A stretch of 17,873 nt of DNA from NCBI GenBank assembly GCA_024278215.1, contig JAJRTR010000149.1, forward strand, positions 1-17,873, in the 5' to 3' direction. Positions 1,272 to 17,181 of the stretch are shown one piece after another; the first letter of the stretch is position 1, and each line of letters opens with the position of its first letter. The DNA comes from a bacterium (GTDB lineage Bacteria; UBP15; UBA6099; JAJRTR01). Below the pieces are notes generated by a model that saw nothing but the letters and a program-made list of their open reading frames with translations, searched no databases and was not told the DNA's origin. The translations under genes and the position numbers were made by a program.

Positions 1272-1417
1272 TCCGCCTCGCCTTACTCCTAACTCTACCA
1301 TAGAATGGTTAAGAATTCCGATAAAATCCTTTTTGGTCCCGGTTCTGCCGGGTTGTGACATTAGGCGGAATAACGTTTGGACAGATGTCGTAATTAGTAA
1401 CACTTTAGCCATGTGAA

Positions 1418-1447
1418 GAATTCCCAGGGGACACAATCCGGAATTCC
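1418..1447 (+). repeat. Degenerate GGGGACA/GGAATT repeat
   Basis: GGGGACACAATCCGGAATT (from 1427) resembles the conserved part of the 65-bp repeats at 9375 and 13318, with two substitutions and one insertion. Perfect 7-bp inverted arms GAATTCC (1418-1424) and GGAATTC (1440-1446) flank it. Confidence 0.5.
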
Positions 1448-1587
1448 ACGACTTTGCTTCAGATGGTTGCTGAAGTGTTACAAATTATGTTTCAGCATTA
1501 AGCAAAGCGGGAATAACCAGAATAAGAAGATTCAAACACTGCAACGCCTGGATATACCAACAGAAAACGAAGAAAGGTTGATGCCTT

Positions 1588-2769: not shown

Positions 2770-2804
2770 GAGTCATAGTCTGTCTGAATAGAACGGAGCA
2801 GACG

Positions 2805-2933
2805 GGGTGTGCGACACAAAAGTGGGTTTTTGCGAAAAGCGGGACAGGTACCGCAAAAAACAGCGTTACCAGTTCCTGTTTTTCGCACATTAAAAATGTG
2901 GTTATTTTTAACCCACTTTTATGTCGCACACCC
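2805..2933. mobile_element. MITE-like non-autonomous element, 129 bp
   Basis: The terminal inverted repeats are 24 bp long (2805-2828 and 2910-2933) with a single mismatch, and both begin GGGTGTGCGACA. The element is flanked by a perfect 9-bp direct repeat GAGCAGACG at 2796-2804 and 2934-2942, as expected for a target-site duplication. It is too short to encode a transposase. The interior holds the motif GGGACAGGTACC and a small hairpin (CACATT/AATGTG). The parent transposase is not in the window. A 9-bp duplication occurs in several IS families, so I do not assign one. It inserted between the lipoprotein gene and the glycosyltransferase gene and could act as a terminator-like structure there. 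Confidence 0.82.
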
Positions 2934-2984
2934 GAGCAGACGCGGGAAGTTGTTTCGAGCAGGTGGAATTGATAAGATAGTTAT

Positions 2985-4526
2985 ATGGTATTGGACCCCG
3001 CGAAATTCAGGAACCGGGTGTGGGAGTGGATACTGCTGCTGACGGTGGTGTTTATAGCGGCTGTTCCGCGTGTGGTGATGATGGCGACGGTCGGTCAGTG
3101 GCTGGATGCCGATGAATCGATAGTTGGCCTGATGGCGAAGCACATCGCCGGGGGGGAAGGCGTGCCGCTGTTTTTCTATGGCCAGAGCTACGGCGGCGGC
3201 CATGTGATCGAAGCGCTTATCACATCCGGGTGGCGGATGATCCGGCCTGGGCCCAGCGCTCTGGCGGTACATGCGGTTCCGGTGATTTTTTCCATATTGA
3301 CAATTGTCATCGTATTTTATCTTGTTCGAGGCAGGTTCGGGCTCAAACCAGCACTTTTGTCGGCAATCATATTAAGTCTGTCCACGCCGTATCTGAAGTC
3401 GTCGCTGAAGGCGGACGGCTATATCGAAACGATTTTTCTCGGGATTCTTTCATTATATGTTTTCAGGGCGGCGCACCGGGCGGATATGGAAGGAAACAGC
3501 CGAAGGGCATCATTGCTGTCTGTTCTACTGGGTGTGTTACTCGGGCTGGCAGTGTGGAGCTACGATTTCGCGCTTATTTACGTGTGTGCGATACTTGTGC
3601 TCGGAATGAAGCGTGTGTTGAGGAAGCCTGTGAGACTGCTGCTGGCGGCGGCGGGCGCGGCAGCAGGCGCGGCGCCAATGATATACGCCAATGTGACGCA
3701 GGGATACGCGCATCTGGGACATTTCATATCGGGAGCGCCCGGCGCAGACAGATCGCCCGCTGCGATTGCGCAGGGGTTCTGGAATATATTCACAGAATGG
3801 ATACCTGCTTTTCTCACGCAGAACAGTATACATAATTTCGTGTTGCCGCCGCCCGGTTACGCATGGTTCACTTATGCCGGGCTGCTGTTCGCTACAGCAG
3901 TGCTGATCGGTCGCCGAAAGGAAGTGCCGGGCGAATACGCGCTTGTCCCGGCGCTCACGATAGCCGCTTCGCTCGTCCTGGGATATGCCGGAAAATCGCC
4001 CCGGTATCTGCTGCCGCTCGAACCGTTTCTCTCGATCGGTGCAGCTCTGGCTGTCTACTGGTGTTTCGAGACGAAAAGGTATGTTAATCATCTTGCGGGT
4101 TTTCTTCTGCTCGCTGTTTTAGGTTTTGGTATCGTCACGGGAGCGGCGGCGGTTTTCGCGGACAGAAGCATCGTCGAGGGCAATGTAAAGACCGACCCGG
4201 AATCCCTGGTCAAGGTTGTCGAGTTCCTTGAAGATAACGATGTCGACTGCATTTACACGACATATTTTATAAAGTGGCGAGTGCTGTTTATCACAGATGA
4301 AAAGATAAACGCGGTGGATGTGAAAGCGCGCGAGCGAAACGAAGCGTACTTGAGATACGAAGACATCGGTTGTCCGGCGGGCGTGCATGGCGCTTATGTC
4401 CTGCACAGGGCGAGCCCATACAGGTACAGCCTCGCCGCTCAGATAAACCGGAGCGCGGTTCCTTATAAGGTATTTTACTCGTCGGACCACATAGCCGCCG
4501 TCCCGACCGCAGCCGATGAAGAATAG
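2985..4526 (+). CDS. GT-C fold membrane glycosyltransferase (GT39/PMT-like)
   Basis: 513 residues with about ten hydrophobic segments spread over residues ~15-400 and a soluble C-terminal tail of ~110 residues. The first periplasmic loop after TM1 carries the GT-C acidic motif DADES (D41, D43, E44). FFYGQSYGGGH (64-73) and E76 follow, typical of ArnT/PMT-type enzymes that use polyprenyl-phosphate sugars on the outer face of the inner membrane. Acceptor and donor are unknown. ATG 2985 is the first in-frame start but has a poor ribosome-binding site; AGGTGG at 2961 is too distant. It is convergent with the 4618-9329 cluster, whose last-listed gene is a related GT-C protein, suggesting a shared surface-glycan role. 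Confidence 0.8.
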   Translation: MVLDPAKFRNRVWEWILLLTVVFIAAVPRVVMMATVGQWLDADESIVGLMAKHIAGGEGVPLFFYGQSYGGGHVIEALITSGWRMIRPGPSALAVHAVPVIFSILTIVIVFYLVRGRFGLKPALLSAIILSLSTPYLKSSLKADGYIETIFLGILSLYVFRAAHRADMEGNSRRASLLSVLLGVLLGLAVWSYDFALIYVCAILVLGMKRVLRKPVRLLLAAAGAAAGAAPMIYANVTQGYAHLGHFISGAPGADRSPAAIAQGFWNIFTEWIPAFLTQNSIHNFVLPPPGYAWFTYAGLLFATAVLIGRRKEVPGEYALVPALTIAASLVLGYAGKSPRYLLPLEPFLSIGAALAVYWCFETKRYVNHLAGFLLLAVLGFGIVTGAAAVFADRSIVEGNVKTDPESLVKVVEFLEDNDVDCIYTTYFIKWRVLFITDEKINAVDVKARERNEAYLRYEDIGCPAGVHGAYVLHRASPYRYSLAAQINRSAVPYKVFYSSDHIAAVPTAADEE

Positions 4527-9439: not shown

Positions 9440-9446
9440 AATGAGC

Positions 9447-9598
9447 CAATTGCAAAATTATGATTCTGCTGCGGTCGGCTGCTACTATCCATAGCTGCGT
9501 TGTTTGTGTACTCTACAAAGTACGACCGCGAGGATTTTACACCTTCGTCTTGCTCTGAACAATTTCGCTTGCTCGCTACGAACATAATTTTGCAATTG
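9447..9598. repeat. Inverted-repeat element (16-bp perfect arms)
   Basis: CAATTGCAAAATTATG at 9447-9462 and its exact complement at 9583-9598 flank 120 bp. The interior holds a module (CAATTTCGCT 9560-9569, CTCGCTACGAAC 9572-9583) that recurs inverted at 13426-13451. ACTATCCATAGCTGC inside and ACTATTCATAACTGC just after the right arm are near-identical direct copies. No target duplication was recognised. It could be a small non-autonomous element or a composite repeat. Confidence 0.6.
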
Positions 9599-9627
9599 AC
9601 TATTCATAACTGCAGCAGGGCGGATAC

Positions 9628-16473: not shown

Positions 16474-16500
16474 ATTAACAGCAGGAAATATGAATAAAGA

Positions 16501-16686
16501 TTGGAAATCCCTGCTGTGTGCGTTGGGTTGCAATGTCTTGAGCCAACACTTTTACCAGGGGAATCCTGCTTCAACGTCTCGATGGCATGCCTCCCTCGAG
16601 TGGACGTCAGACAGCGATGAGGGGATACCCACCTGTATTTATACAGGTTCAATGAAACATTACCTTACGGCACAGCGGGTTTTTTT
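16501..16686 (+). ncRNA. ssrS: 6S RNA
   Basis: About 185 nt that fold as 6S RNA, the sRNA that mimics an open promoter and sequesters sigma-70 RNA polymerase. The closing stem is CCCTGCTGTG (16509-16518) with CACAGCGGG (16671-16679). AATGT in GTTGCAATGTC pairs with ACATT in the typical 3'-side motif GGTTCAATGAAACATTACC. The 5' side of the central bubble has TTGAGCCAACAC, and the upper stem runs from CCAGGGGAATCC to GGGGATACCC. These motifs are those of the proteobacterial/delta-like 6S consensus as I remember it. A T-run (16680-16686) directly follows the closing stem, giving an intrinsic terminator. The exact 5' end is uncertain and could be as early as ~16479. Thioredoxin lies downstream. 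Confidence 0.85.
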
Positions 16687-16851
16687 CTATACGTTATGGG
16701 CAGAGATAAAACAAATAGCACGTATGGCTACAGGCTCGGAAAGCGCGGCCTGTCATCGTGGACAGACATCATTCCGGGATTTCCAAGGCAGGGACACTGC
16801 GACAGTGGTCCACATGATATCTATTATGAAAGCTGCTCAGACGGAGGACTT
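16687..16851. other. Leader region between 6S RNA and thioredoxin
   Basis: Upstream in-frame extension of the thioredoxin frame is possible from 16696, but it has no family similarity. A small hairpin (GGACACTG, loop CGA, CAGTGGTCC, about 16793-16813) is visible. No clear promoter. Confidence 0.35.
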
Positions 16852-17181
16852 ATGGATACTATCGGCGAGAAGGATTTCCACAAAAGGGTCGAATCGTCCG
16901 GAGTCCCGGTGCTTCTATGTTTTTATTCGCAGAAATGCAAACCATGCGTGATAATGGCGCCTGATATCGAAGAACTCGAGAAAGAATATGGTGACGATGT
17001 AGTATTTCTGCGTGTCGACACATCGGTTGATACTGAACTGGCAGCCAGACTTTCGGTTGTAAGCACTCCTACACTGATTCTTTTTGTAGACGGCGCTCCC
17101 GTGCTAAGAATGGTCGGCTATGTGACCAAAACAGACATCCGCCGGAAAGTTGACGAACAATTAAAGATTTCCGCAAAATGA
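16852..17181 (+). CDS. Thioredoxin with CKPC active site
   Basis: 109 residues from ATG 16852, chosen because GGAGG lies 4 nt upstream and the length matches classical thioredoxin. An open frame back to 16696 has no homologous content. Thioredoxins reduce protein disulfides in the cytosol using electrons from thioredoxin reductase. Visible: FYSQKCKPC with C29 and C32 as the redox pair, VVFLRVDTSVDTELAARLSV, and the cis-Pro motif STPTLILF (P73). The usual W-C-G-P-C is K-C-K-P-C, so the Trp and the Gly are both replaced and redox potential or partner choice may differ. An extra Cys is at position 23. No signal peptide. It precedes aroQ by 54 bp in the same direction. Confidence 0.9.
   Translation: MDTIGEKDFHKRVESSGVPVLLCFYSQKCKPCVIMAPDIEELEKEYGDDVVFLRVDTSVDTELAARLSVVSTPTLILFVDGAPVLRMVGYVTKTDIRRKVDEQLKISAK

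Follow-up and report, generated by a model that had tools for sequence, protein, structure and literature searches.

MITEs are common, and promoter targeting by the ISKra4 group of insertion sequences has already been published. In TnGBS and ISLre2 elements and in some ISKra4-group elements, a sigma-A −35 box lies about 16 bp (13 to 17 bp) from the element end (Guerillot et al. 2014, PMC3942029). Insertion sequences of the ISKra4 group have inverted repeats of 18 to 39 bp and 8- to 9-bp duplications; all Mutator-like families give duplications of 8 to 9 bp, and no such promoter preference was found for IS256 (PMC3942029).

The element described here, MITE-A, lies in a 17,873-nucleotide stretch of bacterial DNA (the window) from an uncultured lineage. 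Its 9-bp duplication, its 24-bp inverted repeats, and a right-flank peak in promoter matches at 16 bp fall within the ranges of the ISKra4 group. We consider it very probable that MITE-A is a non-autonomous ISKra4-group transposon, moved in trans with a 9-bp stagger and directed to sites upstream of promoters.

The window copy of MITE-A and its neighbourhood

The window copy and the features around it are arranged as follows.

1588–2769, + strand: upstream gene with CBM96-like and FIMAH domains, uninterrupted, ending 26 bp from the left duplication
2796–2804, no strand: left copy of the 9-bp target duplication, GAGCAGACG (flank comparison)
2805–2933, + strand: MITE-A, 129 bp, non-coding (own-genome copies)
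2805–2828, + strand: left terminal inverted repeat, GGGTGTGCGACACAAAAGTGGGTT; the first 21 bp are those of ISKra4-family insertion sequence ends
2831–2887, no strand: inner imperfect hairpin with GGGACAGGTACC, integral to MITE-A (fold and core search)
2891–2910, no strand: small inner hairpin adjoining the right end (fold)
2910–2933, − strand: right terminal inverted repeat, AACCCACTTTTATGTCGCACACCC; the promoter-facing end across the MITE-A family
2934–2942, no strand: right copy of the 9-bp target duplication, GAGCAGACG (flank comparison)
2950–2955, + strand: weak −35-like box, TTGTTT, 16 bp from the right end of MITE-A (the offset preferred by the family)
2973–2978, + strand: −10-like box, TAAGAT, at 17-bp spacing from TTGTTT
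2985–4526, + strand: downstream gene for a PMT_2-type glycosyltransferase-like membrane protein, intact

The two 24-nt arms, 81 nt apart, are complementary at 23 of 24 positions (96%) and were the strongest inverted pair found by a repeat search of the whole window. The original prediction, which described a MITE with 24-bp inverted ends carrying one mismatch and an intact 9-bp target duplication, was right on both counts; GAGCAGACG is exact on the two sides, and 9 bp is also the length seen across the family. MITE-A has neither coding capacity nor a gene of its own, and it folds in silico as a single long nested hairpin (−70.6 kcal/mol, z −10.9).

The inner GGGACAGGTACC motif had been suggested to mark another repeat of the REP type, and this suggestion did not survive. 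When the 71-bp core around the motif was queried separately, its matches in the source genome were parts of MITE-A copies or of diverged relatives, and one 75% match in another genome (G004) lay near a contig end. A separate inner repeat was thus rejected, there being no standalone copies of the core, which is an integral hairpin of MITE-A and not an independent REP. MITE-A as the carrier of a terminator or promoter was also rejected, with no consensus for either inside it. Elsewhere in the window, a 6S RNA gene is found at 16505–16685 on the + strand (Rfam RF00013, 88.6 bits), overlapped by a mechanically called ORF at 16490–16951.

Copies, target duplications, and nested repeats in the source genome

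Querying the source genome (G000, a draft MAG of 4.55 Mb in 207 contigs) with MITE-A gave about 26 copies after end-to-end self matches were dropped, 19 of them two-ended and about 7 to 9 truncated or interrupted, so that the expectation of further copies was borne out. Most are 86 to 98% identical to the window copy. They are dispersed, and the flanks of most are unrelated. Compared to a consensus built from 18 full copies, 2 of 129 positions are substituted in the window copy, and the remaining copies have 0 to 12 substitutions plus small gaps. A search of 40 other genomes, some related and some distant, found full MITE-A in none; G006, from the same order as the source genome, has the end sequence only, and G004 has a partial match at 75%.

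The target duplication is a property of the group. When the left flank of each of the 19 two-ended copies was set beside its right flank, the two agreed over 9 bp with a mean identity of 0.73, compared to 0.26 for mismatched left and right flanks, and the 9-bp duplication was perfect in 7 of the 19 (0 of 342 mismatched pairs were perfect, as a control for chance). At 7, 8, 10, and 11 bp, agreement was at or near background, leaving 9 bp as the only group-wide length. Individual copies depart from it, with a perfect 10-bp duplication at one (L010) and a near-10-bp duplication matching at 9 of 10 positions at another (L020).

Five copies (L011, L019, L021, L027, and L028) are inserted at the identical point within a second repeat, MITE-B. 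When the flanks of the MITE-B-nested copies are joined, they match uninterrupted MITE-B at C160:57056, C16:21077, and C37:29289; at L019, for instance, CCCGGAATT and CGCGGAATT surround MITE-A, and an empty MITE-B copy has CCCCGGAATT once. Uninterrupted MITE-B is the preinsertion state, provided here by paralogous repeats rather than by a sister strain. For the window copy itself, an orthologous empty site sought in relatives via the downstream gene was not found; the gene is there at about 51% identity, in a neighbourhood that is not conserved. The proposed empty-site check came out for the nested copies, with a single-copy target, and not for the copy that prompted it.

The nested group also bears on whether copies were multiplied through duplication of larger repeats and not by transposition of MITE-A. 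At least five copies do sit at the same place of MITE-B, and such a process may hold for that subset; for most copies, unrelated flanks and private duplications exclude it, and as an account of the family we find its probability close to nil. A different possibility is that MITE-A is a selected, non-mobile extragenic palindrome (REP/BIME-like, a terminator, or an mRNA-stabilizing hairpin) whose copies arose through recombination or the action of a RAYT tyrosine transposase. It has the strong hairpin, the multiple copies, and the intergenic position shortly after a stop codon that one would imagine for such a sequence. Set against these are clearly bounded ends, each site having its own 9-bp duplication, an end sequence in common with insertion sequences encoding DDE transposases, a REP-like core that the search did not find alone, and no terminator-like site in MITE-A. 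In addition, REP/RAYT insertion is not known to leave a 9-bp duplication. Overall, the non-mobile palindrome seems very unlikely.

Transposition remains our preferred reading. MITE-A is a genuine, multicopy MITE: it is short and non-coding, with inverted ends, dispersed copies, a constant duplication length, and ends common to autonomous elements. Recent movement of the window copy, also part of the original prediction, is plausible given the 2 differences in 129 positions and the intact duplication, yet it is not datable, and the assembly is without an intact partner.

Several other repeats were noted along the way. MITE-B, the repeated insertion target of MITE-A, also has a copy in the window (1397–1481, 85 bp, ends GTAACACTTTAG and CTGAAGTGTTAC); copies elsewhere in the source genome show apparent 8-bp duplications (GAATAATC, CACAACAG), and its ends and duplication length are reminiscent of IS66 elements. 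A third MITE-like element, MITE-C, of about 112 bp with ends CATAAGCGTTAACTTAA and an apparent 11-bp duplication, sits inside MITE-A copies as nested MITEs (C160:19791–19902 (L020), C142:9613–9724, C112:81145 and 78389, and C139:1–81). Finally, a palindromic repeat of about 160 to 180 bp (GAGCCAATTGCAAAATTATG ... CATAATTTTGCAATTGACT) that is very abundant in the source genome occupies window positions 9443–9602; that genome gave 467 first-look candidates, 40 of which were scored and matched, and three same-order relatives had none.

Ends shared with ISKra4-family insertion sequences

The original prediction held that the transposase was supplied elsewhere and that a full insertion sequence might share the 24-bp ends. 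Such elements were found outside the source genome, and they are of the ISKra4 type. In G006, four contigs end inside an insertion sequence whose outer 26 to 27 bp match the MITE-A end at 92 to 93%. Two of these ends carry the start of a frame (ATG, MNQTEKLMARREA...), and two carry the C-terminus (written ...GMEWSVRGANAIISLRCIHHSNRTEDYWGFATA or ...SNRTEDYWGFATA, followed by a stop), the stop codon beginning 31 nt from the end of the insertion sequence. A scan of 84,980 species genomes with the 21-bp MITE-A end returned 50 stretches, from Bryobacterales and other Acidobacteria, Thermodesulfovibrionales, Nitrospirae, Thermodesulfobacteriota, and a few other MAGs; 18 of these ends adjoin an ISKra4-like C-terminus (E-D-Y/F-W... 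and a stop). One locus, L114, contains a complete insertion sequence of 1,468 bp in which both ends are present, flanked by a perfect 9-bp duplication, CCGGCGGAT; the frame is split, and the frames match DUF6788 (PF20586) and the NCBIfam ISKra4 model NF033572 (8e-21 and 6e-49). Autonomous-type elements with MITE-A ends thus include those of G006, L114, L091, and others. In ORFs capped by such ends, the NF033572 matches score under the curated cut-off because splits or contig ends break up the frames. Viral contigs searched with the MITE-A end gave no match.

Could another family with 9-bp duplications have moved MITE-A? Families of the IS4/IS10 and IS256 types likewise give 8- to 9-bp or 9-bp duplications, and the duplication length would suit them. 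Against them, 18 ends join the exact letters of the MITE-A end to an ISKra4-like C-terminus, and the promoter offset is the pattern of ISLre2, TnGBS, and ISKra4, with none found for IS256 (PMC3942029). We give mobilization by one of these other families very little weight. Movement by an ISKra4-type transposase encoded elsewhere is supported by the copies, by the insertion sequences with the same ends, and by the empty MITE-B target. The sharing is confined to the terminal 24 bp or so, the interior of MITE-A being unrelated to the insertion sequences; therefore, descent from one particular insertion sequence is not established.

In the source genome, searches by end pattern, NF033572, and protein found no intact partner with MITE-A ends. 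At C94:2649, a MITE-A-type end is preceded by SNRIEDFWESASG and a stop, with the 31-nt spacing seen in G006; this is what remains of the right end of a partner. A single longer ISKra4 gene was seen, at C179:39709–40371; it is a diverged fragment and was ruled out as the intact parent. With only this relic end and remnant gene seen, the autonomous partner has been lost or is missing from the draft assembly, since a draft MAG can miss multicopy insertion sequences. Because only partner remnants were assembled, the MITE-A family may now be inactive in this genome.

The same ends were also seen around other cargo. In a Thermodesulfovibrionales MAG, a 2,047-bp element (L088:731–2777) lies between the ISKra4-type ends of MITE-A, with an imperfect duplication (AATAAAGAG / AATAATGAT); two overlapping frames replace the transposase, one DNA methyltransferase-like and the other perhaps a restriction enzyme, and the element is perhaps a restriction-modification cassette mobilized in trans. 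Acidobacteria MAGs also have three MITE-like elements of 267 to 362 bp with MITE-A-type ends (L085:4898–5164, L073:6770–7037, and L105:6135–6496), two of them with perfect 9-bp duplications (CACCTGCAA, TCCTCTGGC); their interiors are unrelated to MITE-A.

Promoter-side insertion and relation to known systems

We scored matches to TTGACA-(16–18)-TATAAT (maximum, 12) at every offset in 22 right flanks. At offset 16 the mean score was 6.27 of 12, compared to 4.10 (z 4.9), and 0 of 1,000 shuffles reached it with the best of 70 offsets allowed. A stricter run dropped all five copies that other repeats contain or interrupt (L011, L019, L021, L023, and L027) and drew its null from a first-order Markov model; at offset 16, 9 of 20 flanks then scored at least 8, compared to an average of 0.22 at other offsets, and 0 of 1,000 Markov simulations matched this count. 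The offset was spotted by eye in the same flanks ahead of the scoring; as safeguards, every offset was scanned, and the value of 16 had been published independently. Left flanks showed a weak, non-significant promoter excess (shuffle P of 0.59 over all offsets). The right end of MITE-A therefore prefers a spacing of precisely 16 bp on the upstream side of a −35 box, a new observation here, and MITE-A obeys the published promoter rule with one orientation predominating. Ahead of the gene at 2985, the window copy itself shows a weak promoter match (joint score, 7 of 12). Beside the two G006 ends that are not C-terminal, offset 16 scored 9 and 8 of 12; most of the other ends looked at, in other phyla, do not reach such values.

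In the most probable account, events run as follows. An ISKra4-family, Mutator-like DDE transposase, made by an insertion sequence with the same 21- to 24-bp ends, would bind the MITE-A ends in trans, and the element would probably move via a circular intermediate, as in its relatives. The target would be cut with a 9-bp stagger, giving the 9-bp duplication. The transposase would also set the target, preferably 16 bp upstream of a sigma-A-type −35 box with the right end toward the promoter, and would for this make contact with the transcription initiation complex. The copies, their ends, the duplication length, the end sequence in common with ISKra4 insertion sequences, and the promoter offset were observed directly; movement in trans, the circular intermediate, and the contact with the initiation complex are inferred. 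With insertion upstream of the −35 box in this orientation, genes and core promoters would therefore survive. More tentatively, and with somewhat less than even confidence, one can envision MITE-A as a promoter-targeting MITE: gene-free, inheriting the transposase's targeting of the initiation complex, settling one way 16 bp upstream of −35 boxes, separating promoters from the regulatory DNA that lies upstream of them, and bringing a strong hairpin to that place, with copies that would both tag the promoters of an uncultured lineage and rewire them.

An anonymous palindrome of an uncultured lineage is in this way tied to a specific transposase family, and the published promoter rule of Mutator-like prokaryotic transposases is extended to a gene-free miniature element, which suggests that ends of roughly 24 bp are sufficient for it. 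MITE-A copies are also natural promoter tags in a genome without mapped promoters. The open-licence literature searched yielded no earlier ISKra4-associated MITE and none with promoter targeting.

The closest described system is the ISKra4 group (p-MULT 4; Guerillot et al. 2014, PMC3942029), with near-perfect ends of similar length, 8- to 9-bp duplications, and insertion upstream of sigma-A promoters; the MITE-A end sequence is also found on ISKra4 transposase genes. Unlike these insertion sequences, MITE-A is 129 bp long, lacks a transposase gene, and has an unrelated interior, and its promoter signal reaches significance at just one of the two ends; in 13 insertion sequences of the ISKra4 group the signal is seen on both sides (PMC3942029). 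ISLre2 and TnGBS (p-MULT 3) share with MITE-A the preference for a 16-bp distance between one end and a −35 box, in a single orientation, but they belong to a different transposase branch and are insertion sequences and conjugative elements, not miniature ones. Bacterial MITEs, such as that of Porphyromonas gingivalis (PMC4596501), are likewise short, non-coding, multicopy, and trans-dependent, with inverted ends and duplications. What distinguishes MITE-A from bacterial MITEs generally is that its partner and its target rule are of the ISKra4 type.
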